Shown piece by piece: positions 13,752-30,966 of a DNA stretch of 64,000 bases. The position numbers and the translations under genes are program-made. The stretch's first letter is position 1. The number at the start of each line of letters is the position of its first letter. Under the pieces are notes generated by a model, which saw only the letters and a list, made by a program, of their open reading frames with translations, was not told where the DNA came from and did not search any database. The stretch is from Roseivirga misakiensis (lineage in GTDB: Bacteria > Bacteroidota > Bacteroidia > Cytophagales > Cyclobacteriaceae), in assembly GCF_001747105.1 (NCBI RefSeq), contig NZ_MDGQ01000003.1, positions 930,001 to 994,000 on the forward strand, written 5' to 3'.

Positions 13752-13867
13752 CAATAGAGAGGCCAATTATGGTGTTTTCCGATTAGAAAGTAACCCTCAA
13801 AATTCGTATACTTATTCTAGATTTCTTTTCGAAGAAGTATTCTTGAAACGCGCTAATTAATTGAATT

Positions 13868-15880
13868 ATGAAAACAGTTGTCTCCAGTTTTCTGCTACTA
13901 TTTACTGTTGTAGCATTTGCTCAGAACTACGACCAATCTCCATGGCACATTCCGGCCAAAAACATCGATCCTAATAATTACTATGGCATTACTGTAGGCA
14001 ACGGTATGGTAGGAATAGTTTCCTCACCTGAGCCAATGAGAGTGCAAGATGTAGTGCTTAATGGCGTATACGACAACTACCAAAGAGGAAGGGTATCTAA
14101 TATCTTGAAAACCTTCAACCATGTCAATTTCGATCTCGATATCAATAGAAGAAGAGTAGGTGGCAAAATGGTAAGCAACTATCAACAGGTGCTTGACATG
14201 AAAAAGGCCATTTTGACGACAACTTTTGACATAGAAGATAAAGCGACAGTTGAACACCAAGTGATGTCACTCAGACACCTACCTTTCACTGCAATGGTGA
14301 TCATGAAAATTACGGCAAAGGAAGATATATTAATTACGCCTATAAGTGTAATGGAAGCACCGGATCACCTGACTGATGTGAGACAATTCTATGCACAAAT
14401 AGATCGACCGCACGTATCATTTCCTTTAATGACATCCGTAGGAAAAAGCCCTTCAGGTTCCAGTACCGTCGCCGCATCATCCACATTTATATTTCCTGAA
14501 GAGCACGGGCACGAACCAAAAGTAATCCATGAAGATTGGGACTTTAATAGGCACTGGGCAAAGTTCGATAAACAGTTAAAAGCTGGAGAAACATATGAAT
14601 TTGCTTTAGTGGCATCTACTATGGCGAGCGAACATTTCAGCGACCCTCAAAACGAAGCGGAAAGATTAACGATTTATGCAAGATTGGAAGGCAAGGAACG
14701 GTTGCTAGAGAGACACATTGCAGCGTGGGACGAATTATGGGAAAGCGACATTGTCATCGAAGGAGATTTGCAATCTCAAAAAGATGTGAGATCGGCACTT
14801 TACCACCTCTATTCATTCGCTAGGGCAGGTACAGCCTACTCTTTATCCCCAATGGGCCTATCAGGTTTAGGCTATAATGGCCATGTATTTTGGGATACGG
14901 AGCTATGGATGTATCCGCCATTGTTAATGCTACAACCAGATATCGCTAAGTCATTATTAGAATATCGTTTTCAGCGGTTAGGTGCGGCAAAACAAAACGC
15001 ATTTGCCCATGGCTATAAAGGCGCTCAGTTCCCATGGGAATCTGCAGATGACGGATCAGAAGACACGCCAGTATGGGCTCTTACTGGACCTTTTGAACAC
15101 CATATCACCGGCTGTGTTGGCTGGGCATTCTGGAAATACTACCAAGTTACAGGTGACAAAGAATGGTTGAAAGAAAGAGGGTGGCCAATATTAAAAGAAG
15201 TAGCCACATTCTGGGCAAGCAGAGTTGAACGCAACGGACCAGGGCAATACGATATTAAAAATGTGATTGGCGCCAATGAATGGGAAGAAAATATAGACAA
15301 CAACGCCTTTACGAATGCCATTGCTAAACTCACTTTGGGATATGCCTCGGAAGCCGCGCAAGTTTTAGGGCTAAAAGCAGACCCAGATTGGGCACATGTA
15401 GCGGAAAACATCCCAGTTCTGAAATATGCCGATGGTACTACCAAAGAAAACGCGACATATGCAGACGTTATGATCAAACAAGCGGATGTGAACTTACTGT
15501 CTTATCCACTCCAATTTTACAAGGACAACAGTCAGATAGAGAAAGACCTTAAGTTTTATGAAACCAAAATGGCACCTGACGGCCCTGCTATGGGATTTTG
15601 CGTATTAGCGACCATCTATGCACGTTTAGGAGATTCAAACAAAGCTTTTGACGTTTGGACAAACAGCTTCAGACCAAATGCAGTCCCTCCTTTTGGTGTA
15701 TTATCTGAAACAAGAGGTGGCACTAATCCATACTTTGCGACAGGAGCAGGTGGCATGTTGCAAACGGTTCTTGGCGGATTTGGTGGCTTAGATATCACCA
15801 ATGATGGAATTGTAAAAGGAAAACAGAACCTACCCAAAGGGTGGAAAAGTATGGAAATAAAGGGGTTTTATAGAAAATAA
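13868..15880 (+). CDS. secreted GH65 glycoside hydrolase (kojibiosidase/trehalase-like)
   Basis: A 670-residue protein with a cleavable signal peptide ending in AFAQ. The (alpha/alpha)6 catalytic domain shows GH65 hallmarks: GHVFWDTELWMYPP, the general-acid region GANEWEENIDNNAFTN (Glu471 and Glu474) and GVLSETRGG with Glu614. The late Glu suits a hydrolase; GH65 phosphorylases replace that base with phosphate-binding residues. Flavobacterial GH65 kojibiose hydrolases are the closest known type I can recall. Likely reaction: release of glucose from an alpha-1,2- or other alpha-linked disaccharide in the periplasm. It lies 116 bases after the SusC-like gene, and its 3' end nearly touches the convergent HlyD gene. 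Confidence 0.85.
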   Translation: MKTVVSSFLLLFTVVAFAQNYDQSPWHIPAKNIDPNNYYGITVGNGMVGIVSSPEPMRVQDVVLNGVYDNYQRGRVSNILKTFNHVNFDLDINRRRVGGKMVSNYQQVLDMKKAILTTTFDIEDKATVEHQVMSLRHLPFTAMVIMKITAKEDILITPISVMEAPDHLTDVRQFYAQIDRPHVSFPLMTSVGKSPSGSSTVAASSTFIFPEEHGHEPKVIHEDWDFNRHWAKFDKQLKAGETYEFALVASTMASEHFSDPQNEAERLTIYARLEGKERLLERHIAAWDELWESDIVIEGDLQSQKDVRSALYHLYSFARAGTAYSLSPMGLSGLGYNGHVFWDTELWMYPPLLMLQPDIAKSLLEYRFQRLGAAKQNAFAHGYKGAQFPWESADDGSEDTPVWALTGPFEHHITGCVGWAFWKYYQVTGDKEWLKERGWPILKEVATFWASRVERNGPGQYDIKNVIGANEWEENIDNNAFTNAIAKLTLGYASEAAQVLGLKADPDWAHVAENIPVLKYADGTTKENATYADVMIKQADVNLLSYPLQFYKDNSQIEKDLKFYETKMAPDGPAMGFCVLATIYARLGDSNKAFDVWTNSFRPNAVPPFGVLSETRGGTNPYFATGAGGMLQTVLGGFGGLDITNDGIVKGKQNLPKGWKSMEIKGFYRK

Positions 15881-15887
15881 TGACTCC

Positions 15888-17204
15888 TTAACCACGACTG
15901 AGCACTTCTCTCAATTGGTAAAAAATACGCTGAAGAATAGTTAGTTCTTCCGTCACAATTTCAGCAGAACCCTGCATTTCTTGTTTAAAAGCCATAGTCT
16001 TTCCAAAAGAAGTATTCAGGTCTGCGATACTCACTTGTATAGCGTATTCAGCGAGACCCTGTTTAGGAACCGAAGAGATATTGGTCACAAAACCTTTGAG
16101 GCTACCCCATTCGGCGTGAGGATAGTTATCAATCTTAATAATAACCTTTTGGCCAATACTTACCTTTCCAGAATTCTGAACTGGTAAAACAACGCGGCCA
16201 ATAATAGCACCAACCTTTACAGGGACTACCGTAAAGAGTACCGTTCCAACATTCACATTTTGATACTCATTCCAGATATCAAACAGTGTGACTCTTCCAT
16301 TAATTGGGCTTTTTATAAGGTATCGTTGTTCCCAATCAGCTATTGCATTCTTTAAATTCTGAACCGCTTGCTCCAATGATTGATTATTATTGTATAGTGT
16401 TTCCTCATCGGAAAGTAGTAAACGAGTCTTGCTACCGTTAAGGTTAGAAATGCTAATCTTCGTGGTCGCGACCTGTACCTTAAGTCCTTCCAATCTCTGT
16501 TTATCACCCAGATAACTCCTTGATATGGACTCAAATTCAGCGGTAGAAATAATGGCGCTATCTAGCAAACTCAAGCTTCGGTGGTAAGCATTTAATGACA
16601 ATTCGAGTTCTTTTTCGAATAATCGAATCTGGTTTTTCTGTTTTTCTAAAAGACCTAACTGCTCACTAATTTGGTCAGTTAATAAATTAGCCTGAATTAG
16701 ATTTGGTTGATTCTTCAGATAAAGTAGGTAGTTCTGATATTGAGTAATAAACTGTGAATAAGCGTTTTGAATTTCACCTATCGACAGTGTTAAAGGATAT
16801 CTGAGGTGCAAAGAATCCAAGTCAGAAGGAATTATTTTAAAGTCATCTATAAGCCGTCTGACCAATAGAACATCATTTAAAAGTGCTGTGTTCTCTATAA
16901 CCGCCAAGACCTCGTCCTTGACAACAAGCTGATCAGGCTCAACAAAAATATCGGTGACCTTGCCCGTGCTTCTTGCCTCAATATATACTGGAGGGTCATA
17001 ACTAGTAACAGTAATTCTAGCAGGTATAATATCATCGTAGCTGATCAACGCAGACCCTAGAATTATTAAAGACACGATTAACAGAACTACAGTAATCCCC
17101 CACCTGATGACCCAATTCGGTGCCTGACCCATTATTTCCGTCACTGCAGATGATCTGATATCTAAACCAGTCTTTTCAGATTTTTCTTTTGCCTCTGTTA
17201 TCAT
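15888..17204 (-). CDS. HlyD-family periplasmic adaptor of the peptide exporter
   Basis: A 438-residue membrane fusion protein: a short cytoplasmic N-terminus, one membrane helix (about residues 33-55), a biotinyl/lipoyl-like half (ARSTGKVTDIFVEPDQLVVK), a long coiled coil (about 110-270) and the second lipoyl and beta-barrel part (IKSPINGRVTLFDIW). It links an inner-membrane ABC exporter to an outer-membrane TolC channel; none is encoded here. Its ATG overlaps the stop of the peptidase-ABC gene by four bases, so the two are co-transcribed. Together they form the export arm of the adjoining lanthipeptide cluster, divergent from the biosynthetic genes. Confidence 0.92.
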   Translation of the reverse strand: MITEAKEKSEKTGLDIRSSAVTEIMGQAPNWVIRWGITVVLLIVSLIILGSALISYDDIIPARITVTSYDPPVYIEARSTGKVTDIFVEPDQLVVKDEVLAVIENTALLNDVLLVRRLIDDFKIIPSDLDSLHLRYPLTLSIGEIQNAYSQFITQYQNYLLYLKNQPNLIQANLLTDQISEQLGLLEKQKNQIRLFEKELELSLNAYHRSLSLLDSAIISTAEFESISRSYLGDKQRLEGLKVQVATTKISISNLNGSKTRLLLSDEETLYNNNQSLEQAVQNLKNAIADWEQRYLIKSPINGRVTLFDIWNEYQNVNVGTVLFTVVPVKVGAIIGRVVLPVQNSGKVSIGQKVIIKIDNYPHAEWGSLKGFVTNISSVPKQGLAEYAIQVSIADLNTSFGKTMAFKQEMQGSAEIVTEELTILQRIFYQLREVLSRG

Positions 17205-19408
17205 GATCCTAGCTCCAATTGATTTTTCACAAGTTTATAGTAAGCACCTTTTTGACTTACCAGTGCGTCATGATCTCCTGTCTCAATAATTTGCCCCTTG
17301 TCCAAAACCAAAATTTGATCAGCATCTCTTACTGTACTTAATCGATGTGCGACAACAACTACGGTACGGCCTTGATAGAACTCTCCCAAATTCTCCATGA
17401 TGGTTTTTTCATTATTCGCATCAAGGGCACTCGTAGCTTCATCAAAAAACAAGTACTTAGGATCCTTATATACGGCCCTTGCAATAAAAATACGCTGTGC
17501 TTGCCCTCCACTAATATTCACACCACTACCTCCAATTTTCGTTTCTAAACCTCCTGGTAGCTCTTCAATAAAGGTTTCGATATTTGCAATTCTTATGGCC
17601 TCTGCCAGTCTTTCATGATCAGTGCTACCATCAGAATCAGATTCAGTAATATTTCTTGAGATGGTATCACCAAACAGGAAGCCATCTTGCATAACGGTGC
17701 CACAAGATTTTCGCCAAGTCCTAATACTTAAGTCTTCTAATTTGGAAGCACCAACCTGAATGCTTCCACTTTCAGGTTCATAAAACCGAAGTAACAGTTT
17801 TAATAATGTGGTTTTGCCGCTACCACTTGTACCCACAATGGCCGTCACTTTTCCTTCAGGTATATTGCAACTGATATTGTCAAGTGCCAATGCCGAGCTC
17901 TTACTTCCATATCTAAAGTTTAAATTGCTCAATTTAATATTGGCGACAGACGGAAGTGTTTTAATATTGGTCTGAAAAGGGTCATCCTCATCTTCTTTGA
18001 TATGAATCTCTCCTAGACGTTCAATACTAATCTTGGCATCCTGACCGGCTTGAATAAAAGAAATGAAGTTTTGAATGGGCATATTCAATTGGCCAATGAT
18101 GTATTGCACCGATAACATCATTCCGAGCGTGAGTTCGCCTGAGATTACGGCACTAGCAGCAACAAAGGTGATGAGGATATTCTTCACTTCGTTAATGAAT
18201 CCACCACCATTATTCTGGGTCTGAGAAAGTGCTAGACCTTTGACTGAAACCTTAAAGAGCTTTACTTGAATTGCCTCCCACTCCCACCTTCTTCTTCTTT
18301 CAGAACCGTTCAATTTAATCTCTTGCATCCCTGAAATCAATTGGTATATACTACTTTGGTTATCGGCAGATTGATCGAATCGCTTGTAGTCAAGCTCTTT
18401 TCTCCTCTTTAAGAATAATACCGTCCAACCTACATAAATCAAGGAACCTACCATGAAGATTGAGAAGATGGTCAGATTATAATAGGCCAAAACGACACCA
18501 AAAATGACCAAGTTGAAGGCCGAAAAAAGAGTATTCAAAGTTGTAGACGATAGGAAACTTTGAATTCTACTATGATCATGAATCCGTTGTACGATATCTC
18601 CTGTATTCTTTGAGTCGAAGAACGATATTGGCAAACGCATCAGCTTTATTAGAAAATCAGAGATCAGGTTAATGTTGATTCTGCTCGTCATATGCAGAAG
18701 CAACCAACCGCGTATAATACCGACAGTAGTTTGTGAGATAAACAAGGTCAACTGGGCAATTAACATTAGGTAGATAAATCCAATGTTCTGAAAGTTGATA
18801 CCATAGTCAACTACTGATTGTGTGATAAAGGGGAAAATCAATTGGAGTAAACTACCTACCAATAGACCCAAAAACAGCTGTGATATATATCTGTGATATG
18901 GCTTGAAATACCTTAATAGAAACTTAAAACCAAACTTCTTCGTGTCGCGACTGTCCGCATTTTCATAAAACAGCGGTGTTGGCTCAAGCACTAATAAATA
19001 GCCTTCCGAACCAGACGGAGCTTCCTTACCCAACCAACCATTGAGAAACTCAGAAATACTATAGACAACCAGCCCATGGGCGGGATCCGCAACATAGACT
19101 TTACTCCTAGTTATTCTATACACCACGACAAAATGTCGCTGTCGCCAGTGTGCAATACAAGGCAGAAAAACATCTTCTTTAAAGGTTTCAAAATCAACTT
19201 TCACCGGAAGTGAATGAAAACCAAAGTTCTCAGCTGCTTCAGCAATACCCCCCAAAGAAACCCCATCTCGACCAATCGCGGATGCTGTTCTTAAACGGTC
19301 AGCTGAAATCTGTTTCCCATGAAATTTGGTAATCATCCTTAAACAAGTGGGACCACAGTCCATTTGGTCTAGCTGTTTGTAAAAGGGGAATTTCTTAAGT
19401 GGATTCAT
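17201..19408 (-). CDS. C39 peptidase-containing ABC exporter (leader-cleaving, LanT-type)
   Basis: A 735-residue bifunctional transporter. The N-terminal C39 protease has Cys18 in DCGPTCL, His92 in RHFVVVY and Asp108 in ADPAHG, the full papain-like triad that cuts after Gly-Gly of peptide leaders. Transmembrane helices span about residues 170-330 and 400-455. The nucleotide-binding domain has Walker A GTSGSGKTT (526-534), signature ISGGQ (about 632-636), Walker B FFDEAT (about 654-659) and a switch His in AHRLS. It would cleave and export the double-glycine precursor encoded at 24415-24645. It is transcribed away from the lanC/lanB genes from a shared 163-base intergenic region. Confidence 0.95.
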   Translation of the reverse strand: MNPLKKFPFYKQLDQMDCGPTCLRMITKFHGKQISADRLRTASAIGRDGVSLGGIAEAAENFGFHSLPVKVDFETFKEDVFLPCIAHWRQRHFVVVYRITRSKVYVADPAHGLVVYSISEFLNGWLGKEAPSGSEGYLLVLEPTPLFYENADSRDTKKFGFKFLLRYFKPYHRYISQLFLGLLVGSLLQLIFPFITQSVVDYGINFQNIGFIYLMLIAQLTLFISQTTVGIIRGWLLLHMTSRININLISDFLIKLMRLPISFFDSKNTGDIVQRIHDHSRIQSFLSSTTLNTLFSAFNLVIFGVVLAYYNLTIFSIFMVGSLIYVGWTVLFLKRRKELDYKRFDQSADNQSSIYQLISGMQEIKLNGSERRRRWEWEAIQVKLFKVSVKGLALSQTQNNGGGFINEVKNILITFVAASAVISGELTLGMMLSVQYIIGQLNMPIQNFISFIQAGQDAKISIERLGEIHIKEDEDDPFQTNIKTLPSVANIKLSNLNFRYGSKSSALALDNISCNIPEGKVTAIVGTSGSGKTTLLKLLLRFYEPESGSIQVGASKLEDLSIRTWRKSCGTVMQDGFLFGDTISRNITESDSDGSTDHERLAEAIRIANIETFIEELPGGLETKIGGSGVNISGGQAQRIFIARAVYKDPKYLFFDEATSALDANNEKTIMENLGEFYQGRTVVVVAHRLSTVRDADQILVLDKGQIIETGDHDALVSQKGAYYKLVKNQLELGS

Positions 19409-19488
19409 ATGTCATTAAGACTTGCTAGGTATAGGATTATCCCCAGTGATTTTTAAGCGTCCTATATGACTGTTACAAAAAATGGGCT

Positions 19489-19530
19489 GAGGTAATCAAT
19501 CGATAATTTTTTTTTAAAAGTGATTACCTC
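19489..19530. promoter_or_regulatory. perfect 10-bp inverted repeat between the export and biosynthesis arms
   Basis: GAGGTAATCA (19489-19498) and TGATTACCTC (19521-19530) are exact reverse complements around a 22-base AT-rich spacer. The centres lie 32 bases apart, about three helical turns, and the spacer holds TAATTTTT, close to the Bacteroidota -7 box. The site sits in the only intergenic region between the divergent operons, as expected for a shared operator. The cluster's LytTR protein is a candidate binder, though this is inference. Confidence 0.55.
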
Positions 19531-19571
19531 CATGGCATTTCTGACAACTCCTATCATAAACGCGGAAACCT

Positions 19572-20783
19572 ATGTTACAGAAAAAAGACCTAGAGAAAAA
19601 ACTAGAAGAGATTGCCCAAGCCTTAGAGACTAAACAGATGGAAAGCCCCCACCTTGGTGTACTAGCTGGCATTTCAGGGGTTGCCATGTTCTTCTTTTAC
19701 TACGCCAAATACAAGCGAGACAATCATTATGGAACAGTCGGAAACCGAGTGCTTGAGGAGTGTCTTAATAGAATAAGCAATGGGTATAGTTTTCCCACCT
19801 ATTGTACTGGAATTGCAGGAGTGGGTTGGGTTTTTGAACACCTATCGGAAAATAATTTCATTGAGATTAAAAATGATAAGCTTCTTCCTGATATAGAAGA
19901 TCATCTCTATCATAAGATGAAAGAACGTATCTCAATAGGTCACTATGATTTCCTTCATGGAGCTATTGGCTATGGCGTTTACTTTCTTAAGCGTTACAAA
20001 AACACTCAATCAGAAAAGCTGAAAATAAAGTATGAGGCTTATTTAAAGGAGTTATTAGAAGGGTTAAAGGAAACCTCAGAAAAAGATAAGAGTGGCATCA
20101 AGTGGTCTTCCGAAATCAAAAAAGGCCAGAGTCCAGAAATTGTATATAATCTTAGCCTCTCACATGGCATGTCCAGCATCGTAAACTTTCTTGCACGGAC
20201 CTATGAGTTTGACGAATTTCAAAGTTTAGCTTATCCTCTACTAAAGGGAAGTATAAGTTATATACTGTCTCAAGAAAAATCCATTGAACATTCACTATTT
20301 CCAAGTACTATTTCAAAAAATTCAAAAACAGTGCCTGTCGAATCACGCCTCTCATGGTGTTATGGCGACCTAGGTGTGGGCCTCTCGTTACATAAAGCAT
20401 CTCAAATACTAAAAGATCAAGAACTCAGTGAAGATGCCAGCCGAATACTATTACATAGTACAAACAGAAAAGGCTTAAAAGCTTGTGGAGTAGTAGATGC
20501 CAGCCCCTGCCACGGTGCTTTTGGACTAGCTCAAATCTACGGAACCATGTTTAAGCTAACCAAGCTTAAAGCGTTGGGTAAGGCTACAGATTACTGGGTA
20601 AGCGAAGGCCTAAAATTAGCAATATATAAAGATGGGTACGCTGGCTTCAAACAACAAAGGTGGAATGACTCTCCTGTAAACGAAGTCAATCTACTAGAAG
20701 GAATAGCTGGTATTGGCTTATGTATTATATCCTATCTCTCTGACTTTGAGCCGAACTGGGAAGAGTCTTTGATGATTAAATAA
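19572..20783 (+). CDS. LanC-type lanthipeptide cyclase
   Basis: A 403-residue alpha-toroid protein of the length usual for LanC. The zinc ligands of the family are visible: Cys263 in SWCYGD, then Cys313-His314 in SPCHGA. Further family motifs are FLHGAIGYG, LSLSHGMSS (His198) and the closing LLEGIAGIG. LanC enzymes catalyse addition of Cys thiols to dehydroalanine/dehydrobutyrine to form (methyl)lanthionine rings. It is the first gene of the plus-strand biosynthetic operon and is separated by 4 bases from lanB, so it is probably translationally coupled. It starts with ATG 41 bases downstream of the inverted repeat. No truncation or loss of ligands is seen. Confidence 0.93.
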   Translation: MLQKKDLEKKLEEIAQALETKQMESPHLGVLAGISGVAMFFFYYAKYKRDNHYGTVGNRVLEECLNRISNGYSFPTYCTGIAGVGWVFEHLSENNFIEIKNDKLLPDIEDHLYHKMKERISIGHYDFLHGAIGYGVYFLKRYKNTQSEKLKIKYEAYLKELLEGLKETSEKDKSGIKWSSEIKKGQSPEIVYNLSLSHGMSSIVNFLARTYEFDEFQSLAYPLLKGSISYILSQEKSIEHSLFPSTISKNSKTVPVESRLSWCYGDLGVGLSLHKASQILKDQELSEDASRILLHSTNRKGLKACGVVDASPCHGAFGLAQIYGTMFKLTKLKALGKATDYWVSEGLKLAIYKDGYAGFKQQRWNDSPVNEVNLLEGIAGIGLCIISYLSDFEPNWEESLMIK

Positions 20784-20787
20784 TTTA

Positions 20788-23031
20788 ATGACCATGAAAA
20801 AGAACCCCTACAGAAGTTTTGATAAATGTGTAGTACGAACACCATTGCTCCCACTCTCTTACTTTAAAGAATTAACAAAAGAAGACAATGTAGATGTTGA
20901 GGATTTGAAGCAGACCTACGCTACAAATGCTATTATAAAGGAAGCTATTTTCCTAGCTTCTCCTACACTTTATGAACGACTTGAAAAATGGTGCTCGAAT
21001 GAAATCACTGACAAGAAAGAGGCTGAAAAATTAGTTTATTCATTGCTTAAGTACTTAAGCCGTATGTCTTCGCGTTGTACTCCTTTTGGGTTATTTGCTG
21101 GGACTGGTATTGGATCTTTTAATGAGAGGACAAGTATAGAGTTGGAACCTTATGAAAAGTTCGGAAGGCATACACGTTTCGACATGAACTATTTAATTGC
21201 CCTGTCTCAGAATCTAGTAAGAGAGCCCTCAATCAAAAAGCAACTTCTCTTTTACCCAAATAGCAGTTTGTATAGGGTGGGAAACGAATGGCGTTACATA
21301 GAATACATCTATCATAACAAAAAGAGAAATCATCAAATGGTATCATTGGAGAATGATGATAACCTGCGAAGAATTATATCTGCCGCAAAGCCGGGGGCTT
21401 ATCTCAGTGACTTGTCAAAACTGCTAGTAGATGACGAAATTACAACTGGAGATGCCATCGCCTTTATTGATGAACTCGTCAGTAGTCAGCTATTAGTTAG
21501 CGAGTTAGAGCCTTCCGTTTCAGGGCCAGAGTTTTCATTTCAACTAACAACTTATCTTAAAAAACTAAAAGGAATTCAATTACTACTAGAGACTTTTTCT
21601 CAAGCTAATCAAAACTTAGAATCGCTTGATAAAAAGTTAGGTAACCCTATCAAAAGTTATTTGAAAATAGCCAATTCTTTAAAAAATCTGGAAACCAAAT
21701 TCGAGTTGAAGCACATGTTTCAAACAGACATGATACTGCATCTAAAAGAAAATCAGCTGGGCCACGCCACAATAGATAAAGCCTTAAAGGCACTGACACT
21801 ATTTAACAAAATCACACCGCCAAGGGAGGAAACAATGCTTAGTCAATTTGGGAAAGCACTCTATGAACGCTATGAAAATAGAGAGGTGCCTTTAGCCAAA
21901 GCACTCGATATGGAGATAGGTATTGGCTATAAACAAAACCAAGGCAGCGGAGATGTAAACCAACTGATTGATGACATTGTAACACCAACGAGTAACAAGA
22001 ATACATTTCAAAAAATTAGTTTAACCGCCTACCAAAAAATACTACATCAAAAGCTAATTGAAAGTATTAAACTTGAGTATCCTGTAATTCATTTAAGCGA
22101 TAAGGATTTCGAAAAATTTGAGGTGAACTGGGACGACCTAGCTGACACAATATCAGCAATGATTCAAGTTGTTCAAGAGCAGGGGAATGATAAATTATTT
22201 ATCTCTGGCTTTGGTGGATCATCATCGGCTAATCTTCTTGCTCGATTCTGTCATGGGGACAAAGAAATTAATCTTCATACACGGCACATTGTTGAGCGAG
22301 AGCATAAGATGAATCCGAATAAAATTCTTGCAGAAATTGTTCATCTTCCCGAATCTAGGGTGGGAAATATTTTGATGAGACCAGCATTCAGAAACTATGA
22401 AATACCATATTTGGCCAAATCAATTCTACCTACGGAAAAGCAACTAAGCATAGACGACCTTGTCATTAGTGCAAGACGTGATGGGCGAGTTACACTCAGG
22501 TCAATCTCAATGCAAAAAGAGGTTATTCCAAGACTTTCTAATGCCCATAACTTCTCTAACCAATCCCTGCCGATTTATAATTTCCTCGCAGACCTGCAAA
22601 CTCAAGGGAGAAGAATGCTCGGCTTCGGTTGGGGTGGATTAGCTGAATTATATAAGTTCCTACCAAGAGTTGAATTCGAAGGAGTAATCTTAAGCAAAGC
22701 ACAGTGGACTATCTCGAAAAAAGAGATTGAAAACCTCATGCTGGAAGATACCAGTGATGCCAAACTGAAAGTTGCACTGAAGTTATGGAAGAAAACTTAT
22801 CAAATACCTCAATATGTATTATTGATAGAAAGTGACAACGAGTTGCTCATTAATACCGATAACCTCACAGCCGTGCGCATGCTACTCAACGAGGTAAAAA
22901 AGAAAGCACGGTTCAAACTAAGTGAGTTTCTCTTCGGAGAAGAAACAATAGTGAAACAGGGTTCAAACCAATACACCAATCAAATGATAATATCCTTTGT
23001 CAACACTCAAAAACAAAATGGCCATGAATAA
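20788..23031 (+). CDS. lantibiotic dehydratase, glutamylation protein (LanB N-terminal type)
   Basis: A 747-residue protein equal to the large N-terminal domain of class I LanB. The motif SSRCTPFGLFAG (residues 94-105) corresponds to the conserved R-x-TPFG-x-F-AG of the family, and the N-terminus VVRTPLLPL also fits. These proteins use glutamyl-tRNA(Glu) to glutamylate Ser and Thr of the precursor. The glutamate-elimination domain that completes one-piece LanB proteins (about 1000 residues) is absent here and is supplied by the next, overlapping gene. Split dehydratases are known in Bacteroidota (pinensin cluster) and thiopeptide clusters. A tRNA-Glu gene lies within the same neighbourhood, at 24697. 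Confidence 0.93.
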   Translation: MTMKKNPYRSFDKCVVRTPLLPLSYFKELTKEDNVDVEDLKQTYATNAIIKEAIFLASPTLYERLEKWCSNEITDKKEAEKLVYSLLKYLSRMSSRCTPFGLFAGTGIGSFNERTSIELEPYEKFGRHTRFDMNYLIALSQNLVREPSIKKQLLFYPNSSLYRVGNEWRYIEYIYHNKKRNHQMVSLENDDNLRRIISAAKPGAYLSDLSKLLVDDEITTGDAIAFIDELVSSQLLVSELEPSVSGPEFSFQLTTYLKKLKGIQLLLETFSQANQNLESLDKKLGNPIKSYLKIANSLKNLETKFELKHMFQTDMILHLKENQLGHATIDKALKALTLFNKITPPREETMLSQFGKALYERYENREVPLAKALDMEIGIGYKQNQGSGDVNQLIDDIVTPTSNKNTFQKISLTAYQKILHQKLIESIKLEYPVIHLSDKDFEKFEVNWDDLADTISAMIQVVQEQGNDKLFISGFGGSSSANLLARFCHGDKEINLHTRHIVEREHKMNPNKILAEIVHLPESRVGNILMRPAFRNYEIPYLAKSILPTEKQLSIDDLVISARRDGRVTLRSISMQKEVIPRLSNAHNFSNQSLPIYNFLADLQTQGRRMLGFGWGGLAELYKFLPRVEFEGVILSKAQWTISKKEIENLMLEDTSDAKLKVALKLWKKTYQIPQYVLLIESDNELLINTDNLTAVRMLLNEVKKKARFKLSEFLFGEETIVKQGSNQYTNQMIISFVNTQKQNGHE

Positions 23032-23935
23032 TATAGACACTGTTCAAAGGTCGTTTATGATAGGTGACTCTTGGCTTTATTATAAAGTATATACGGGTCA
23101 TAAAACCGCAGACCGCATTCTGGCCGAGGTTATAAGACCACTAGCCCAACGGTTGTTAAATGAATGCATGATAGAAAAATGGTTCTTTATTCGTTATTCA
23201 GACCCTAAACCTCATTTAAGAATAAGGTTTTGCCTTAAAGATAAAGGGGCTGTTTCTTCAATCATCACATTGTTTTATGATAGCCTCTCACTTTATGTCA
23301 AAGAAGAGCTTGTCTGGAAATTTCAAATAGAGGATTATCATCGTGAATTAGAACGATATGGTCATAATACCATGGAAGAGGCTGAATCTCTATTTCAATA
23401 CGACAGTCAATTTGTTGTAAGCCTATTGAACTTAATAGAGGGTGAAGAAGGAGAGGAGCTCAAGTGGCTTTTGGCATTACGCGGCATAGACAGCCTACTC
23501 AGTGCCTTTAATTATTCGTTAGAAGAAAAACTGAACTTAACCGATAAAATGAAAAACAGCTTTGCCAATGAATTTGGCATGTCAAGATTCCTTAAAAAAC
23601 AGTTGGACGAAAAGTACAGGGTATTCCGAAAAAAAATAGATCAATTCTTGAACGAGAGCTTGCAACAAGAGCAAGAACTGGCTCCTATTCTAGTTTTGCT
23701 AAAACAAAGAGAAGTTGGTCTTAAGGCTGTAGCCAAACAAATAAGTCTGAAAGAAAAGGATCAAGTAATTCATATCTCAATTGATGACTTGATGTCTAGC
23801 TACATTCACATGTTTATGAATCGCTTGTTTCGATCACAAAATCGCAAGTATGAATTAGTGATTCATGACTTTCTCCACCGCTCTTACAATTCGCAACATG
23901 CCAGGCTCAGGCATCAGAAATCAGACCAACCTTGA
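23018..23935 (+). CDS. thiopeptide-type bacteriocin biosynthesis protein (LanB elimination domain)
   Basis: About 305 residues, matching the C-terminal SpaB_C/elimination part of class I LanB. It shows SWLYYKVYTGHKTAD near the start, then WFFIRYSDPKPHLRIRF, a hallmark of the domain. It removes glutamate from glutamylated Ser/Thr to leave dehydro residues. The reading frame opens further upstream at a TTG (22997), but ATG 23018 or 23024 is the more likely start; all overlap the end of lanB, by 14 or 8 bases for the ATGs, so translation is coupled. Its stop is one base before the ATG of the LytTR gene. It should work as a partner of the 747-residue protein. Confidence 0.9.
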   Translation: MAMNNIDTVQRSFMIGDSWLYYKVYTGHKTADRILAEVIRPLAQRLLNECMIEKWFFIRYSDPKPHLRIRFCLKDKGAVSSIITLFYDSLSLYVKEELVWKFQIEDYHRELERYGHNTMEEAESLFQYDSQFVVSLLNLIEGEEGEELKWLLALRGIDSLLSAFNYSLEEKLNLTDKMKNSFANEFGMSRFLKKQLDEKYRVFRKKIDQFLNESLQQEQELAPILVLLKQREVGLKAVAKQISLKEKDQVIHISIDDLMSSYIHMFMNRLFRSQNRKYELVIHDFLHRSYNSQHARLRHQKSDQP

Positions 23936-23936
23936 T

Positions 23937-24275
23937 ATGAGAAAAGAAAATAACATACTCATACCAACAACTAAGGGCGTGCAACTCGAGAAGATCAAAA
24001 ACATTCTTTGTGTATGTGCAGAAGGAAGTTATAGTGAACTCATTTTAACCTCAGGTGCCAAGCATATGATAAGTAAAAACCTATCGAATCTTACGAGCTT
24101 ATTACCTGATCAAACATTCTTTAGGATTCATTCTTCAGTAATCATTAACATAAGTCATATAGTGGAAATCATTGAAAATGAAGTGGTCATGACAAATGAT
24201 TTTCATTTTCCTATAGCACAACGTAGGAAGAAAGAGTTTCTCGAGTTTCTCAAAAGGAATTCTCTGGCCTTGTAG
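23937..24275 (+). CDS. stand-alone LytTR DNA-binding regulator
   Basis: A 112-residue protein that is essentially only a LytTR domain. It has the early strand KIKNILCVCAEGSYSELIL, the middle KNLSNLTSLLP and the signature FFRIHSSVIINISHI that precedes the DNA-contacting beta strands. An in-frame ATG at 23865 lies inside the previous gene; ATG 23937, one base after that gene's stop, is preferred because the LytTR fold begins right after it. There is no receiver domain and no partner kinase in the cluster. LytTR proteins usually bind pairs of short repeats, so the inverted repeats at 19489-19530 and 24323-24344 are candidate targets. Probably a cluster-specific regulator. Confidence 0.88.
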   Translation: MRKENNILIPTTKGVQLEKIKNILCVCAEGSYSELILTSGAKHMISKNLSNLTSLLPDQTFFRIHSSVIINISHIVEIIENEVVMTNDFHFPIAQRRKKEFLEFLKRNSLAL

Positions 24276-24322
24276 TAATCAGTTTTATGCTTTTGATCAT
24301 CAGTTATACTCCCAGAATTATC

Positions 24323-24344
24323 GGATATAAAAGATGTTATATCC
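24323..24344. promoter_or_regulatory. 8-bp perfect palindrome upstream of the precursor gene
   Basis: GGATATAA (24323-24330), six bases, then TTATATCC (24337-24344). The arms are exact reverse complements, and the site ends 70 bases before the precursor ATG, in a 139-base gap otherwise AT-rich. It is placed as an operator would be; no T-run follows, so termination is less likely. Confidence 0.5.
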
Positions 24345-24414
24345 ATTCATAATCTCGTTTTAATACTATATACATTGCTTTAATTAAAAAAATGTAAAAC
24401 CTAAATTTAAAAAA

Positions 24415-24645
24415 ATGAAAAAGCAAAAATTTAACGGAAAACTGAGATTAAAGAAAAATGTGATTTCTAATCTTAGTGCTGGTGCACTAAGGGGAGGTAC
24501 GAATGACAGTTTCTTACCTCAATGCGAACTAACCTTTGACACTTGTAATACAGGTTCACTCTGTACATACGGTTGCCCTCCGATAGAAACGCAACATGTA
24601 GACTGTAGAACTGAACATGTCCAAACTGACTGTCGTTGTCTATAA
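24415..24645 (+). CDS. class I lanthipeptide precursor peptide (Gly-Gly leader)
   Basis: A 76-residue peptide. The 28-residue basic leader has the pattern K-L-x-L-K-K-x-V-I-x-x-L and ends in LRGG, as in the Bacteroidota GG-leader natural-product precursor family. The 48-residue core has seven Cys (core positions 9, 16, 22, 26, 36, 45, 47) and ten Ser/Thr (1, 4, 12, 15, 18, 20, 23, 31, 38, 43). Short Ser/Thr-to-Cys spacings such as CTYGC and TDCRC could form small thioether rings. The C39 domain of the minus-strand exporter should cut after Gly28. It lies 139 bases behind the LytTR gene and is followed by a strong hairpin. I do not recognise the core as any named lantibiotic. Confidence 0.9.
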   Translation: MKKQKFNGKLRLKKNVISNLSAGALRGGTNDSFLPQCELTFDTCNTGSLCTYGCPPIETQHVDCRTEHVQTDCRCL

Positions 24646-24654
24646 TAAAGATTA

Positions 24655-24688
24655 GGGGTAAGTCTTTGTCTATGGCAAGACTTACTCC
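24655..24688 (+). terminator. strong hairpin after the precursor gene
   Basis: GGGGTAAGTCTT (24655-24666) pairs with AAGACTTACTCC (24677-24688) as a 12-bp stem with one G-U pair and a 10-base loop. It begins nine bases after the precursor stop and ends eight bases before the tRNA. There is no real T-run, so it may protect the 3' end of the message or mark a processing site as well as end transcription. Confidence 0.65.
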
Positions 24689-24696
24689 ATCTTTAT

Positions 24697-24768
24697 AGTC
24701 CGTTCGTCTAGGGGTTAGGACATCAGGGTTTCATCCTGAAAAGAGAGGTTCGATTCCTCTACGGACTA
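24697..24768 (+). tRNA. tRNA-Glu (anticodon TTC)
   Basis: A full cloverleaf folds here. The acceptor AGTCCGT pairs with ACGGACT over 7 bp; the D arm is GTCT/GGAC around AGGGGTTA; the anticodon stem TCAGG/CCTGA encloses loop GTTTCAT with anticodon TTC; the T arm AGAGG/CCTCT encloses TTCGATT. The discriminator is A and CCA is not encoded. It lies directly behind the lanthipeptide precursor, and glutamyl-tRNA is the co-substrate of the LanB enzyme, although a link is unproven. Confidence 0.95.
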
Positions 24769-24937
24769 CTTTATTTTTTTAAATGCTTGCGAAAACTAAA
24801 ATCATCCTTCAAATCAACATTTCCATAATTGTTTCATTTTAGTCTACCCTTTTTATACTAAAAATATTTAATTTCTCCTTGTTACTTTACAAATAAAATT
24901 CGTTTCATTTACAGCACAAGATTCCTGACCTGTTGCA

Positions 24938-25507
24938 ATGGGAGAAAAAGAAAAAAGCTCAAAATTAGTTGAGCGAATACTTTCTGTCAATCCAAAAAAG
25001 AGAAGCACTGCTCTTACACAAGTCTATAATGAATGTTTTCCAATGGTAAAACGGTACATAGTCAAAAACAATGGCAGTGTAGAGGAAGCTAAAGACATTT
25101 TTCAAGAAACCATTACCATAGTCTATCATAATCTGATTGAACAAAAATACAGAGGAGAGTCCGCTTTAAACAAGTACATTATCGGCATAGCAAGAAACCT
25201 ATGGCTGCTAAAGCTTCGCAAAAAAGACGTCCCTACGGTAACAATAGATGGACAGCACAGCTTAACTCAAGAGCCCGACGAAAAGTTAGATACGCATCTT
25301 GTAAGTTATGTCTTAGAGCACTTGAATTCAGGTTGTCGTAACATTCTCAAATGGTTTTATTTTGAAACTCAGAGCATGGAAGAGATAGCTAAAAATCTTA
25401 ATCTTGGTAGCGCACAAGCTGCCAAAACAAAGAAATTAAGGTGCATGAAAAAATTGGCTAGCTTAATCAAAGAACACGGCCTAGAAAAACATCATTTCAC
25501 ACTATGA
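24938..25507 (+). CDS. ECF-type RNA polymerase sigma factor
   Basis: A 189-residue sigma-70 family protein of extracytoplasmic-function size. Region 2 is recognisable in AKDIFQETITIVYHNL and GIARNLWLLKLRKK (about residues 50-100). Region 4 is in LNSGCRNILKWFYFE and SMEEIAKNLNLGSAQAAKTK (about 130-175), a helix-turn-helix that would read the -35 element. Its stop overlaps the next gene, which encodes a membrane protein placed as anti-sigma factors are. It would direct transcription of a regulon, possibly including its own operon, under control of the downstream proteins. A link with the preceding lanthipeptide genes is only positional. Confidence 0.92.
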   Translation: MGEKEKSSKLVERILSVNPKKRSTALTQVYNECFPMVKRYIVKNNGSVEEAKDIFQETITIVYHNLIEQKYRGESALNKYIIGIARNLWLLKLRKKDVPTVTIDGQHSLTQEPDEKLDTHLVSYVLEHLNSGCRNILKWFYFETQSMEEIAKNLNLGSAQAAKTKKLRCMKKLASLIKEHGLEKHHFTL

Positions 25508-26199
25508 GCCAGAAAGACCAACACATAGATCTTTTTGATAAGTATCAGACCAATCAACTCTCTGAAAACGAAAGAATTGCTTTTGATGAGAGGATCCAAA
25601 ATGATGCAGAGTTCTCGCAAGCGTTTGAGCAATATATTGCTGAGGTAAATGTAATTAAGGCAATAAGTGCTGGGGAGGAAATGCAGTCAATTATGAACAG
25701 CGACTCTAAAATTAGCCTTAAACCAACTATTCGTAGGTGGCTGATTCCGGTAAGCGTTGCTGCTGCAATCGCTTTGTTTCTAATATTCACACAAATTAGT
25801 CAACGCAATCATAACTCACTTTTTAATGAATATTTCACGCCATACCCTGATGCTGTGACAAGTCGAAACGTGGGAAATGGGCTGAGCAATGCCCTACATT
25901 TTTACTCACAACAAGAATACGCCAAAGCGTTAGAAGGTTTCGAAGCTCTTGCGGAAAGCGATACAGTAGAGTTTTACGAAGGCATCTGTTTACTCGCTCT
26001 CAAACGACCAGAAGAAGCACTTGACAAATTAAATACAATTGGAATCAATAGTATCTTTAGAAACCAATCCCAATGGTTCAAAGGACTGTCATTTTTGCTT
26101 CTTGAAGAAAGTGACTCAACTATCAAAAGCTTTGAGAAAATAAAAGCACTGAGCAAGTATAAGAAACAGTCTCTCGAACTTATAAAAAGGCTTCAATGA
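25504..26199 (+). CDS. anti-sigma-like membrane protein with periplasmic TPR-type region
   Basis: A 231-residue single-pass protein. An acidic, helical N-terminal region of about 75 residues resembles the cytoplasmic sigma-binding parts of Bacteroidota anti-sigma proteins. One membrane helix spans about residues 79-98, and the periplasmic part contains TPR-like helical pairs (SNALHFYSQQEYAKALEGFE; YEGICLLALKRPEEALDKL). It lacks a clear zinc-type HxxxCxxC motif, so the mode of sigma binding is inferred. The ATG overlaps the sigma-factor stop by four bases. The TPR part could sense or bind the large TPR-CHAT protein encoded next. Confidence 0.78.
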   Translation: MSQKDQHIDLFDKYQTNQLSENERIAFDERIQNDAEFSQAFEQYIAEVNVIKAISAGEEMQSIMNSDSKISLKPTIRRWLIPVSVAAAIALFLIFTQISQRNHNSLFNEYFTPYPDAVTSRNVGNGLSNALHFYSQQEYAKALEGFEALAESDTVEFYEGICLLALKRPEEALDKLNTIGINSIFRNQSQWFKGLSFLLLEESDSTIKSFEKIKALSKYKKQSLELIKRLQ

Positions 26200-26271
26200 T
26201 TTGTTTTAGTGCCTTGCATACATGTGATCAACTAGTGAAAGCAAAAAGAACAAAAAATAACTTGACCATAT

Positions 26272-29200
26272 ATGATTGAACAGTTGAAAGAACTCCGGTT
26301 AATCACTATTCTACTTATTTTAGGCGGTTTAGTTCACCCTCTCTTAAACTATCAATTAAGTGGTCAGGACAATGCTGAGCTTCTTATGGGAAAGGCTAAG
26401 GAATATTCTCAAATCTATGATTTTGATAATGCGATTGAGACATTAGAAAGGGCTTCATCCCTCTATTTGAAAAAACAAGATTCTCTCAACTATTTCTTTG
26501 CCAGAATAAAAGTAGCCTCCCAGCTTGCCAAAAAAAGAAGTTTTGAAGAAGCATATAGCGTCATTAGCGGTATTATTAATAGAAACGAGAATTCTCAAAT
26601 ACTATTAGAAGCATATATTACAAAGGCCGAAATCCTAAGGCTATCACGAAAATGGCCTGAAGTCTTGGAGACTCTTAACTCCACTTCGAGATTTATGGAT
26701 GGAAACTCCTATAAGGGAGTTTTAGGGATTGCTCGTTCTAAGGTTATTCAGGGTAAAACCGAAGCAGCTACTGGAAAATTCACAGAGGCATTGACCTCCC
26801 TAACCGAAAGCCTTGCGATATATGACAGCTTAAATCTAAAACCTGAGCTCGCCCAAGTTTATTATGAACTTGGCAGAGTTAATTCAATGAACTCTGATCC
26901 TAATAATGCGCTCATTCACCTTAATAAAGCTGACTTAATAAATACTGCAGTCGCAAGCAGCAAAAAGAGTTTTTTTATAGCCAAGGTTTACTCACAACTT
27001 GGAATGGCATACTCGCAATTAGGAATGTATCCAAATGCATTACAAGAGCTCTTTAAAGCCACAGATATCGCAAGAGAGTTAAACCCAGAAAGTGAAGAGT
27101 TAATAATTGCTTTAACTAGAATTTCGGGGGTCTACAATGATATGGAACAGCCAAAAGAAGGAATATCTTCAATGAAAGAAGCAGCCAACCTTGCCGAACT
27201 TATCTACGGGCAGAACTCTTTAGAAACGATTGCCACCTATAGGGCTTTAGGAAGAGCTTACCTTGTAGACGGTGTATATAACGGAGCATACGAAATTGCT
27301 CGGAAAAATGCTTTGGCAAGTTACAATAAGGCTTTAGAATTATTGAAAACTCATTTCCCTGAAGAGCAAAAGAATCTTGCAACTTTGACCTACGATATAG
27401 GGACAGTTGAACTTTACTTTGGAAATGCAGATGAAGGGTTAAGGCTAATGGCTAATGGTTTGGAAATTGCCATGAAAATTCCTTTTGGTTTTAAGCCAAA
27501 GGCTACTAAACTGGCAAACGATTTGGCCGTTGCATTTTTATCTAAACCTGAAGGGCCTCAGCCTGATTCAGCCATGAAGTACTTTCAAAAAGCATTAGTG
27601 GCTAGTACTAAAAACTTCAAAAGTGAACTCCTTGAGATTAACCCGCAAATTGATGACGTGGTTACTACATATGAGTTTTATCGAGCAATCATTGGGAAGT
27701 CGTATTCAATGGATATTAAATACGAGATAGAACCTAAAACTGAGTTATTAACCTATGCTTTTGATGCTACACTAATAGCAGATAGCATTGCAAATAAACT
27801 GAGAGAATTACCGCTAGGTTATACTAATAAGACCATACTAAATTCTGGAATTGCGGAAAGTCAACATTATGCTATCAGAATTGCGCACAAACTTTTTGAG
27901 ATTACAGCTGATTATAAGTATGCAGAGTTTGCCTACACCTTCTTTGAAAAAAGTAAAGCTAATCAGGCATTTTTTGATCTTAATCCACCAGATATCCCCA
28001 AATCTTACATAGATCAAGAAGAAGCGATCGGCAAGGAACTCTCTTTGTTAGAAACGCTTGTTTATACCAAGGAAAGCAAGATAGAGAACTTGGATAATCG
28101 AAAGTTGAAAGACCTTAAGGAACGCATATTACAATTAAACAAGCAATTGTTAGGACTAAGGCAAAAAATCAAGCGCGATTTCCCTAACTACTACTCATTA
28201 AAGTACAATAACAATTATTTGAATATTGATGAGACAAGAGAAAAGCTATTGGGCGATAAAGAACTCCTTTTAAACTACAATATCTTTGGCAGAAGTATGT
28301 ATTCATTCAGAATTGATAAATCAGGGTTCGATTTTATTAAGCACCTAGACGGGTCAGATTCCACCTTATTTAAGTACATAGATCAATTTACAAGGCAACT
28401 AAAAAGGCCTGGTAGTACTCCCCAAAATATTTCAGAAATGAAGTCTTCATCTTCCAAATTATCTGAATTATTATTTACTGACTCTTTGGATTTTAGTCGT
28501 TACAATAAGGTTACTATAATTGCTGATGGCATACTTCATAAAATTCCTTTTGAGGTTCTACTGACGAAAGGAGTTGATGCAGAATTAGAGGACCATGACC
28601 TACCCTTTCTAATAAAGACCCATGATGTTAGATATGCTACCTCTGCCACTTCTTTAAAACAACTTAATTCATCAAAAAAGCATTCTGGCCAAAAAGTCTT
28701 AGCCTTCGCTCCTTTATTCAATATCAAAAGCACAAACAACCCATCAAATTTTGATTCGACAAGAGCAACTATGGGAAATCTTGCCTATACCCAAGGCGAA
28801 GTGACAGCTATAAAAGATCATTTTGATACCAAGCTTCTTTTAGACCTCGAAGCGACTGAAAGAGCCTTCCGAAAAAATGCATCCGATTATGCAGTAGTGC
28901 ACTTGGCTACTCATGGCATAATTGATGAGGAAAATTCTCTATACTCAAGGTTACTGTTTTCTCCATTTGATCAGGACTCTATTAGTGATGGGTACTTAAA
29001 TATGAGGGAAATTCTTGGCTTAGATGTTCCAGCGAACATGGTTGTCCTCAGCGCTTGTAATTCAGGTTCAGGTAAAATATTATCAGGAGAAGGTGCTTTA
29101 AGTATTGCGAATGGCTTCTTCTACGCGGGTGCTAAAAGTGTGATAATGACGCATTGGACAGCTAACGACAATAGCACCGCGAATATAATGGGTGCTTTTT

Positions 29201-29451
29201 ACAGTTACCTAGCTAAGGGTCAAACCAAAAGTCAAGCTATGAGAAATGCCAAATTGGCTTATCTAAGAGAAAATGACGGCCTCTTGGCACATCCTTATTA
29301 TTGGGCGCACTTCACAGTAAATGGCGATGACAGTCCTATTGTAAAAGCGGGTATTGCCTGGTACTATTGGATAATCATTTTATTGATAAGCATAGGTGTA
29401 ATAGGCTTGATGATAAGAAGAAAGAAAACTGCTTTATCACTGACTGAATAA
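26272..29451 (+). CDS. TPR-repeat protein with C-terminal CHAT (caspase-like) protease domain
   Basis: A 1059-residue protein. An N-terminal hydrophobic segment is followed by tandem TPR helices (about residues 30-500), a coiled linker and a CHAT domain. The domain's caspase-clan dyad is intact: His881 in LATHG and Cys929 in LSACNSG. GEGALSIANGFFYAGAKSV and HPYYWAHF are further CHAT landmarks. A membrane helix near residues 1030-1047 followed by RRKK suggests that most of the protein is periplasmic and anchored at its C-terminus. In Bacteroidota such genes often follow ECF sigma/anti-sigma pairs, as here. It may be the sensor or protease of a regulated-proteolysis circuit; its substrate is unknown. 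Confidence 0.9.
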   Translation: MIEQLKELRLITILLILGGLVHPLLNYQLSGQDNAELLMGKAKEYSQIYDFDNAIETLERASSLYLKKQDSLNYFFARIKVASQLAKKRSFEEAYSVISGIINRNENSQILLEAYITKAEILRLSRKWPEVLETLNSTSRFMDGNSYKGVLGIARSKVIQGKTEAATGKFTEALTSLTESLAIYDSLNLKPELAQVYYELGRVNSMNSDPNNALIHLNKADLINTAVASSKKSFFIAKVYSQLGMAYSQLGMYPNALQELFKATDIARELNPESEELIIALTRISGVYNDMEQPKEGISSMKEAANLAELIYGQNSLETIATYRALGRAYLVDGVYNGAYEIARKNALASYNKALELLKTHFPEEQKNLATLTYDIGTVELYFGNADEGLRLMANGLEIAMKIPFGFKPKATKLANDLAVAFLSKPEGPQPDSAMKYFQKALVASTKNFKSELLEINPQIDDVVTTYEFYRAIIGKSYSMDIKYEIEPKTELLTYAFDATLIADSIANKLRELPLGYTNKTILNSGIAESQHYAIRIAHKLFEITADYKYAEFAYTFFEKSKANQAFFDLNPPDIPKSYIDQEEAIGKELSLLETLVYTKESKIENLDNRKLKDLKERILQLNKQLLGLRQKIKRDFPNYYSLKYNNNYLNIDETREKLLGDKELLLNYNIFGRSMYSFRIDKSGFDFIKHLDGSDSTLFKYIDQFTRQLKRPGSTPQNISEMKSSSSKLSELLFTDSLDFSRYNKVTIIADGILHKIPFEVLLTKGVDAELEDHDLPFLIKTHDVRYATSATSLKQLNSSKKHSGQKVLAFAPLFNIKSTNNPSNFDSTRATMGNLAYTQGEVTAIKDHFDTKLLLDLEATERAFRKNASDYAVVHLATHGIIDEENSLYSRLLFSPFDQDSISDGYLNMREILGLDVPANMVVLSACNSGSGKILSGEGALSIANGFFYAGAKSVIMTHWTANDNSTANIMGAFYSYLAKGQTKSQAMRNAKLAYLRENDGLLAHPYYWAHFTVNGDDSPIVKAGIAWYYWIIILLISIGVIGLMIRRKKTALSLTE

Positions 29452-29452
29452 A

Positions 29453-29484
29453 TTGTTCATCTTCATTTTCATTCCTTAACTTTG
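29453..29484 (+). promoter_or_regulatory. Bacteroidota-type promoter of the haloperoxidase-like gene
   Basis: TTG at 29453-29455 and a perfect TAnnTTTG box (TAACTTTG, 29477-29484) are 21 bases apart, a normal -33/-7 arrangement. Because the box covers the GTG at 29484, that codon cannot be the start; the ATG at 29508 is preferred. Confidence 0.65.
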
Positions 29485-29507
29485 TGGAAGTGAAAAAGAT
29501 ACATGAG

Positions 29508-30839: not shown

Positions 30840-30855
30840 GAATAATTCAAATTTC

Positions 30856-30889
30856 AAAAAAAGCCAGTGTCTATGCACTGGCTTTTTTT
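30856..30889 (+). terminator. rho-independent terminator
   Basis: GCCAGTG (30863-30869), six-base loop, CACTGGC (30876-30882), then seven T; the stem is preceded by seven A, so it could work in both directions. It ends the haloperoxidase-like transcript 17 bases after the stop. Confidence 0.9.
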
Positions 30890-30966
30890 GTTGCACAATA
30901 TGCCGTTTACTGGCCAAAAACTATGATTTCCAATAGCAATAGCGTATACTTATAGGTATGTCTTTT

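Follow-up and report, generated by a model that had tools for sequence, protein, structure and literature searches.

A tRNA-Glu gene that may serve the dehydratase of a mobile class I lanthipeptide cassette in Roseivirga misakiensis

Why should a gene for tRNA-Glu lie inside a cluster of genes for the synthesis of a lanthipeptide? The question is raised by a 64 kb stretch of DNA from Roseivirga misakiensis (64,000 nt, contig NZ_MDGQ01000003.1, positions 930,001 to 994,000; termed the window, to which the coordinates below refer), which contains a class I lanthipeptide cluster with a split LanB dehydratase. Dehydratases of class I take glutamyl-tRNA-Glu as their co-substrate (PMC9993889). The sole tRNA that ARAGORN finds in the window is a tRNA-Glu(UUC), located on the plus strand at 24697–24769 (Rfam tRNA, 55 bits), 51 bp behind the stop codon of the lanthipeptide precursor gene and on the same strand. 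An initial annotation of the cluster had ended at 24768, one base before the end of this tRNA, which went unnamed there. The tRNA-Glu very probably belongs to the cassette, and we lean towards the view that a class I lanthipeptide cassette has moved horizontally with a tRNA-Glu of its own that serves its LanB. The main interest of the locus lies in a co-substrate tRNA that the biosynthetic cassette itself carries; the cluster as such is routine. In the literature (open-licence full texts) we found no description of a gene for tRNA-Glu located within a lanthipeptide cluster or a cluster of another kind.

The genome has tRNA-Glu genes in three places. Two of these are identical copies located elsewhere, and the third, borne by the cassette, shows 9 differences from them over 73 positions. 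Copies of tRNA-Glu outside the cassette are labelled housekeeping here. The genus was sampled with 19 genomes, including that of the window. LanB is encoded in two of them, the genome of the window and a relative denoted G014, and the same two alone have a third copy of tRNA-Glu. The remaining 17 have at most two copies, and one of these genomes, which is 80% complete, has none. If the extra copy were assigned to two genomes by random draw, the probability of hitting precisely this pair would be 1 in 171. The extra tRNA-Glu of G014 (L043:11700–11772) lies 55 bp behind its precursor gene. Within the family a LanB match (E-value 1e-30 or better) is found in 20 of 390 genomes, the other 18 of which match at no more than 36% identity.

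The cluster lies within an inserted unit of 13.6 kb (15881–29504) that is absent from the relative G001. The DNA of G001 (L237) matches the window at 12351–15880 and at 29505–30892, with 87 bp between the two matches. This empty site places the boundaries of the unit at approximately 15881 and 29504, so that it also takes in genes for an ECF sigma factor, for a protein of 231 aa and for a TPR-CHAT protein of 1059 aa. Both the empty site and the parallel cassette of G014 indicate that the cassette runs past the interval initially annotated, to approximately 29504. The G014 cassette is identical to that of the window in gene content and order. The insertion sites differ between the two genomes, and the tRNA is interior to the unit in both. 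In G014 the cassette is flanked by direct repeats of 263 bp that are 98.5% alike (L043 approximately 2450–2712 and 16344–16606); the repeat covers the end of an atpC-like gene (named by eye), and the right copy is without the start of the gene. No integrase was noticed in the G014 cassette, and the borders of the window cassette have no direct repeats of note such as those in G014. From the HlyD gene into the precursor gene the DNA of the two cassettes is 71.6% identical over 8.6 kb, compared with 93% over 75 bp for the tRNA. The tRNA is present and intact, has moved together with the cluster and is conserved with it.

The cluster tRNAs of the window and G014 agree at 68 of 73 positions, and either one shares 64 of 73 with the common housekeeping type. 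Housekeeping sequences were extracted from 29 of 33 places; 20 of these sequences are one and the same. The G014 cluster tRNA agrees with the housekeeping type of genomes G003 and G005 at 58 of 73 positions; G014's own pair of housekeeping copies is outside this comparison, its search scores resembling those in G003 and G005. Nine distinct tRNA-Glu sequences were aligned, and every one of the 189 pair cells of the cloverleaf is a standard pair. The changes in the cluster copies include exchanges of whole base pairs at 27–43 and 51–63, and in G014 also at 2–71. Judged by its sequence, the cluster tRNA looks like a maintained tRNA under selection and not like a decaying copy.

Both cluster copies have A1–U72 where the housekeeping copies have G1.U72, a purine at position 32 where those have U, and A51–U63 in the T stem where those have G51–C63 (standard tRNA numbers were assigned here, alignment columns 50 and 62 being positions 51 and 63). 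Both have in addition U27–A43 and A44, the latter shared by some of the genus's housekeeping copies. A49–U65 is present in the cluster tRNAs, but equally in the housekeeping copies. The strong determinants for glutamyl-tRNA synthetase (GluRS), as they appear in the E. coli list (PMC9976931), are kept in the cluster tRNA. These are U34, U35, C36 and A37, U11–A24, U13–G22:A46 and the lack of a base 47. The weak determinants G1–C72 and U2–A71 are absent from cluster and housekeeping copies alike.

A pathway can be proposed from these features. Since the published strong determinants are kept, the GluRS of the host would be expected to charge the cluster tRNA. By reference to the protein families, the glutamylation subunit of LanB would then take glutamate from the cluster tRNA and so activate serine and threonine residues of the precursor, and the separate elimination subunit would remove the glutamate. 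LanC would close the thioether rings, and the C39-ABC protein would cut behind Gly-Gly and export the product with HlyD. The gain would be independence from the tRNA-Glu of the host when the cassette enters a new one, because LanBs select on the acceptor stem of tRNA-Glu. MibB distinguishes between the isoacceptors of its own genome; the blauticin LanB accepts both isoacceptors of its host (PMC10877564). In E. coli the LanBs of Chryseobacterium and Runella completed dehydration only once provided with a tRNA-Glu/GluRS pair from Bacteroidota, which was Chryseobacterium's own and, for Runella, that of Chryseobacterium (PMC9993889). More speculatively, A51–U63 and purine 32 might make translation draw less on the tRNA and set aside a separate pool for LanB. 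In the most elaborate form of the proposal the cluster tRNA would be a dedicated, portable co-substrate insulated from translation. It would be charged by GluRS but taken up poorly by EF-Tu (owing to A51–U63) and by the ribosome (owing to purine 32), with A1–U72 having co-evolved with LanB, and the host pool of Glu-tRNA would be neither needed nor drained. This form of the proposal is put forward tentatively, as less likely than not.

A number of observations weigh against a tRNA dedicated to LanB. A family scan finds no GluRS among the cassette genes. The GG of the D loop (18–19) is kept, and the D loop, AGGGGTTA, is the same as in the housekeeping copies. The sample is small, comprising two cassettes only, and the use of the cluster tRNA by LanB is a prediction from sequence. 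No tRNA-Glu is located near LanB in any of 141 other LanB loci examined. Of these, 80 are the best 80 of 540 loci encoding relatives of the window LanB, several of which end at contig edges. The other 61 are regions outside the genus, where two overlap on one contig and some PF04738 matches are partial and lie in large proteins; a 200-bp placeholder (L199) among 60 fetched places was left out. LanBs thus generally manage without a nearby tRNA-Glu, and as far as seen the arrangement is peculiar to the present lineage of cassettes rather than something that the enzyme family requires. A general linkage of LanB and tRNA-Glu in Bacteroidota is rejected on these counts (0 of 80 and 0 of 61). The idea that the cluster tRNA is simply that of a donor is likewise rejected: among the genomes encoding 12 of the nearer LanBs, the 11 that gave a match all carry tRNA-Glu of the ordinary type.

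The last of these observations concerns viruses. One identical tRNA-Glu with A32 and A51–U63 is found on two IMG/VR viral contigs (L247:362–434 and L248:8880–8952), one of which is phage-like (it encodes a helicase); no LanB, LanC or exporter is found in the examined stretch of either. A pattern for A51–U63 detects these two contigs among the viral sequences, as does one with a purine at position 32; a pattern for the ordinary form matches at least 120 stretches. A32 and A51–U63 can therefore arise without LanB, and could reflect an origin in a mobile element or a relaxed use in translation. L247 also carries a gene for tmRNA. Among cellular genomes, patterns that fix a D-arm sequence, and so see only part of the tRNA-Glu genes, find A51–U63 (with base 32 free) in 1 of 395 genomes of the phylum, that of the window. 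Among 245 loci the same pattern gives four matches, all of them the two cluster copies. The looser G51–C63 pattern, subject to the same restriction, matches 49 copies in 35 of 118 genomes of the phylum, all with a pyrimidine at position 32 (by eye).

The viral tRNA and the 141 LanB loci are the basis of the alternative that survives best. According to this the tRNA-Glu is a passenger acquired from a phage or other mobile element, and, if it works at all, is an ordinary tRNA for translation unrelated to LanB. But of all tRNAs the passenger would happen to be exactly the co-substrate of LanB, and both its place behind lanA and its base pairing are kept in two cassettes with a 28% difference in their DNA. 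Moreover the viral tRNA agrees with the cluster tRNAs at 63–64 of 73 positions, no closer than the housekeeping type (64 of 73). We therefore consider a passenger unlikely, if deserving of attention.

A different role is suggested by the sequence between the precursor gene and the tRNA. A stable hairpin is predicted on the plus strand at 24645–24696 (−24.9 kcal/mol, z = −6.0; none of 200 shuffled sequences is as low in energy), terminating at the base that precedes the tRNA. Inspection by eye of G014 reveals a hairpin followed by a run of T in the same place. Hairpin and tRNA might together process or stabilize the 3′ end of the lanA transcript. For this the hairpin alone would be sufficient, however, and the identity of the tRNA as tRNA-Glu, the kept GluRS determinants and the changes common to both copies would be left unexplained, so we give this explanation little weight. 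The hairpin and T-run could also terminate transcription ahead of the tRNA. The tRNA may be co-transcribed with lanA and then released by RNase P, or it may have a separate promoter; both are possible.

It is at least as improbable that the tRNA adds decoding capacity for the glutamate codons of the cassette. These are enriched only slightly, amounting to 305 of 4303 codons (7.1%) in ten cassette genes compared with 533 of 9128 (5.8%) in 15 other open reading frames of the window, and there are three in the precursor gene. Without the cassette copy the host would still have two tRNA-Glu(UUC) genes, and purine 32 and A51–U63 are not expected of improved decoding; extra translational capacity is rejected on these grounds. 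Least probable of all is that the tRNA gene was the site into which the cassette integrated, for although tRNA genes are common integration sites, this one is interior to the inserted unit in both genomes, which already disfavours it as an attachment site, and none of the other 17 genomes sampled from the genus has more than two copies, so that a third one did not lie ready for integration.

The remainder of the cluster is intact, as the initial annotation had it. Every part that it named is present and open where it was placed, as judged by open reading frames and family scans. The HlyD-type export adaptor (15888–17204, minus strand) matches PF13437/HlyD_3 with 48 bits (cut-off 22). The C39 peptidase-ABC exporter (17201–19408, minus strand), which would cut behind Gly-Gly, matches PF03412, PF00664 and PF00005, and its translation contains the described Cys-His-Asp triad as C18, H92 and D108. 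On the plus strand the stand-alone LanC cyclase (19572–20783) matches PF05147 (LANC_like) with 158 bits, and has the WCYG and CHG motifs in keeping with the zinc ligands ascribed to it. The dehydratase is indeed split between two open reading frames. The glutamylation part (20788–23031, plus strand) matches PF04738 (Lant_dehydr_N) with 467 bits, and its residues 39–742 align to NisB 31–710. In this alignment R92 and R96 correspond to R83 and R87 of NisB, which we take to be important there. The elimination part (23024–23935, plus strand) matches PF14028 (Lant_dehydr_C) with 243 bits, and corresponds to NisB 732–987. Its open reading frame begins at 22997, the likely start at 23024 having been picked by likeness to G014. 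The LytTR DNA-binding regulator (23937–24275, plus strand; PF04397, 56 bits) was treated in the same way, within an open reading frame of 23865–24275 on the plus strand.

The cluster is thus correctly assigned to the Bacteroidota type of class I lanthipeptide clusters, and is an ordinary pinensin-like one; what was overlooked is the tRNA-Glu that it carries and the extent of the mobile unit. A new lanthipeptide cluster is rejected as the main news, since relatives are common. Relatives of the window LanB are encoded by 540 stretches of one genome collection, and of 390 genomes from the order to which the window's genome belongs, 103 have PF04738. The reported absence of LanI and LanFEG agrees with our family scans, which recognize none among the genes of the unit, no dedicated search for immunity genes having been made.

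The LanA precursor (24415–24645, plus strand) has 76 aa and matches NF038153 (‘class I lanthipeptide’) with 25.6 bits, above the cut-off of 22. Its leader contains the LxLxKx5L motif (LRLKKNVISNL), which has been described for Bacteroidetes (PMC7268733), and ends in LRGG, as expected of the GG leader reported for it. The core is 48 aa long, with 7 cysteine and 10 serine or threonine residues. The first 18 residues of the leader are identical in the G014 precursor (L043:11369–11644), while the core has diverged save for a C-terminal DCxTxHxxTDCxCL, indicating rapid change of the core with a fixed end. No counterpart of the core other than that of G014 was seen among the precursors read by eye from a regular-expression scan of 84 sources, a non-exhaustive scan that the G014 precursor itself escaped. 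A family relative (G028, L044) has a separate LanB cluster with a LanB approximately 35% identical, and two short GG-leader precursors at 8235–8423 and 16431–16661; no tRNA-Glu is found at this cluster in the 20 kb examined.

Downstream of the tRNA, all on the plus strand, are genes for an ECF-type sigma factor (24938–25507; PF04542, 24.1 bits, cut-off 24), a 231-aa protein, X (25504–26199), with no Pfam family above cut-off, and a TPR-CHAT protein of a caspase-like fold family (26272–29451; PF12770, 207 bits). Identity between window and G014 proteins is 89% for the ABC exporter, 71% for LanB, 58% for the ECF factor, 41% for X and 34% for the CHAT protein. The set at 24938–29451 diverges far more rapidly than do the genes for the lanthipeptide. 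Of 80 flavobacterial LanB loci, 12, 6 and 5 give weak matches to ECF, X and CHAT, respectively. As the sole remaining candidate within the unit, our guess is that this module has a role in self-protection or response.

The selectivity of LanB for tRNA-Glu hampers the transfer of class I lanthipeptide pathways from host to host, and the laboratory remedy in foreign hosts is a matching tRNA-Glu and GluRS (PMC9993889). A tRNA copy of its own may keep the pathway working after a move to a new host. If the proposed role is true, the cassette would be evolution's version of that remedy, and competition between translation and tRNA-dependent biosynthesis would become testable with a single gene of 73 nt. 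Genome mining would then gain a new mark, namely a solitary gene, within a biosynthetic cluster, for the tRNA species that serves as co-substrate.

The cluster can be compared with several known systems. Pinensin-type clusters, as described in PMC7268733, similarly have a split LanB, LanC, a GG leader with LxLxKx5L and a C39 protease. The account of them there that we draw upon mentions no cluster-borne tRNA-Glu, and the window cluster differs in being known from its genes alone. The LanB locus of Leptobacterium flavescens (L083) encodes HlyD, ABC and LanC proteins 50, 75 and 49% identical to those of the window, a LanB, elimination part and LytTR regulator 53, 51 and 49% identical, and a GG-leader precursor too. 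Unlike the window it has no tRNA in 22 kb, and no match to ECF, X or CHAT.

For the tRNA itself the closest comparison is with the tRNA-Gly that Staphylococcus aureus uses for cell-wall synthesis, in which the EF-Tu element at 51–63 is lost (PMC4052509, PMC9976931). Like the cluster tRNA this is a paralogue with A51–U63 in place of the strong EF-Tu pair G51–C63, and it has A49–U65 as well (PMC4052509). Its aminoacylated form is spent outside translation, as would be the case for the cluster tRNA on our proposal. The likeness is partial. In S. aureus A49–U65 stands instead of G49–U65, whereas in the window genome it is also found in the housekeeping copies, and the GG at 18–19 is replaced in the tRNA-Gly but kept in the cluster tRNA. 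The cluster tRNA is also distinguished by its location inside a biosynthetic cassette, and its weak binding to EF-Tu is a prediction. With respect to function the nearest parallel would be the pEVOL tRNA-Glu/GluRS system (PMC9993889), where a LanB at work in a foreign host is likewise given the tRNA-Glu that suits it. That system is engineered and includes GluRS, whereas the cassette is natural and brings the tRNA only.

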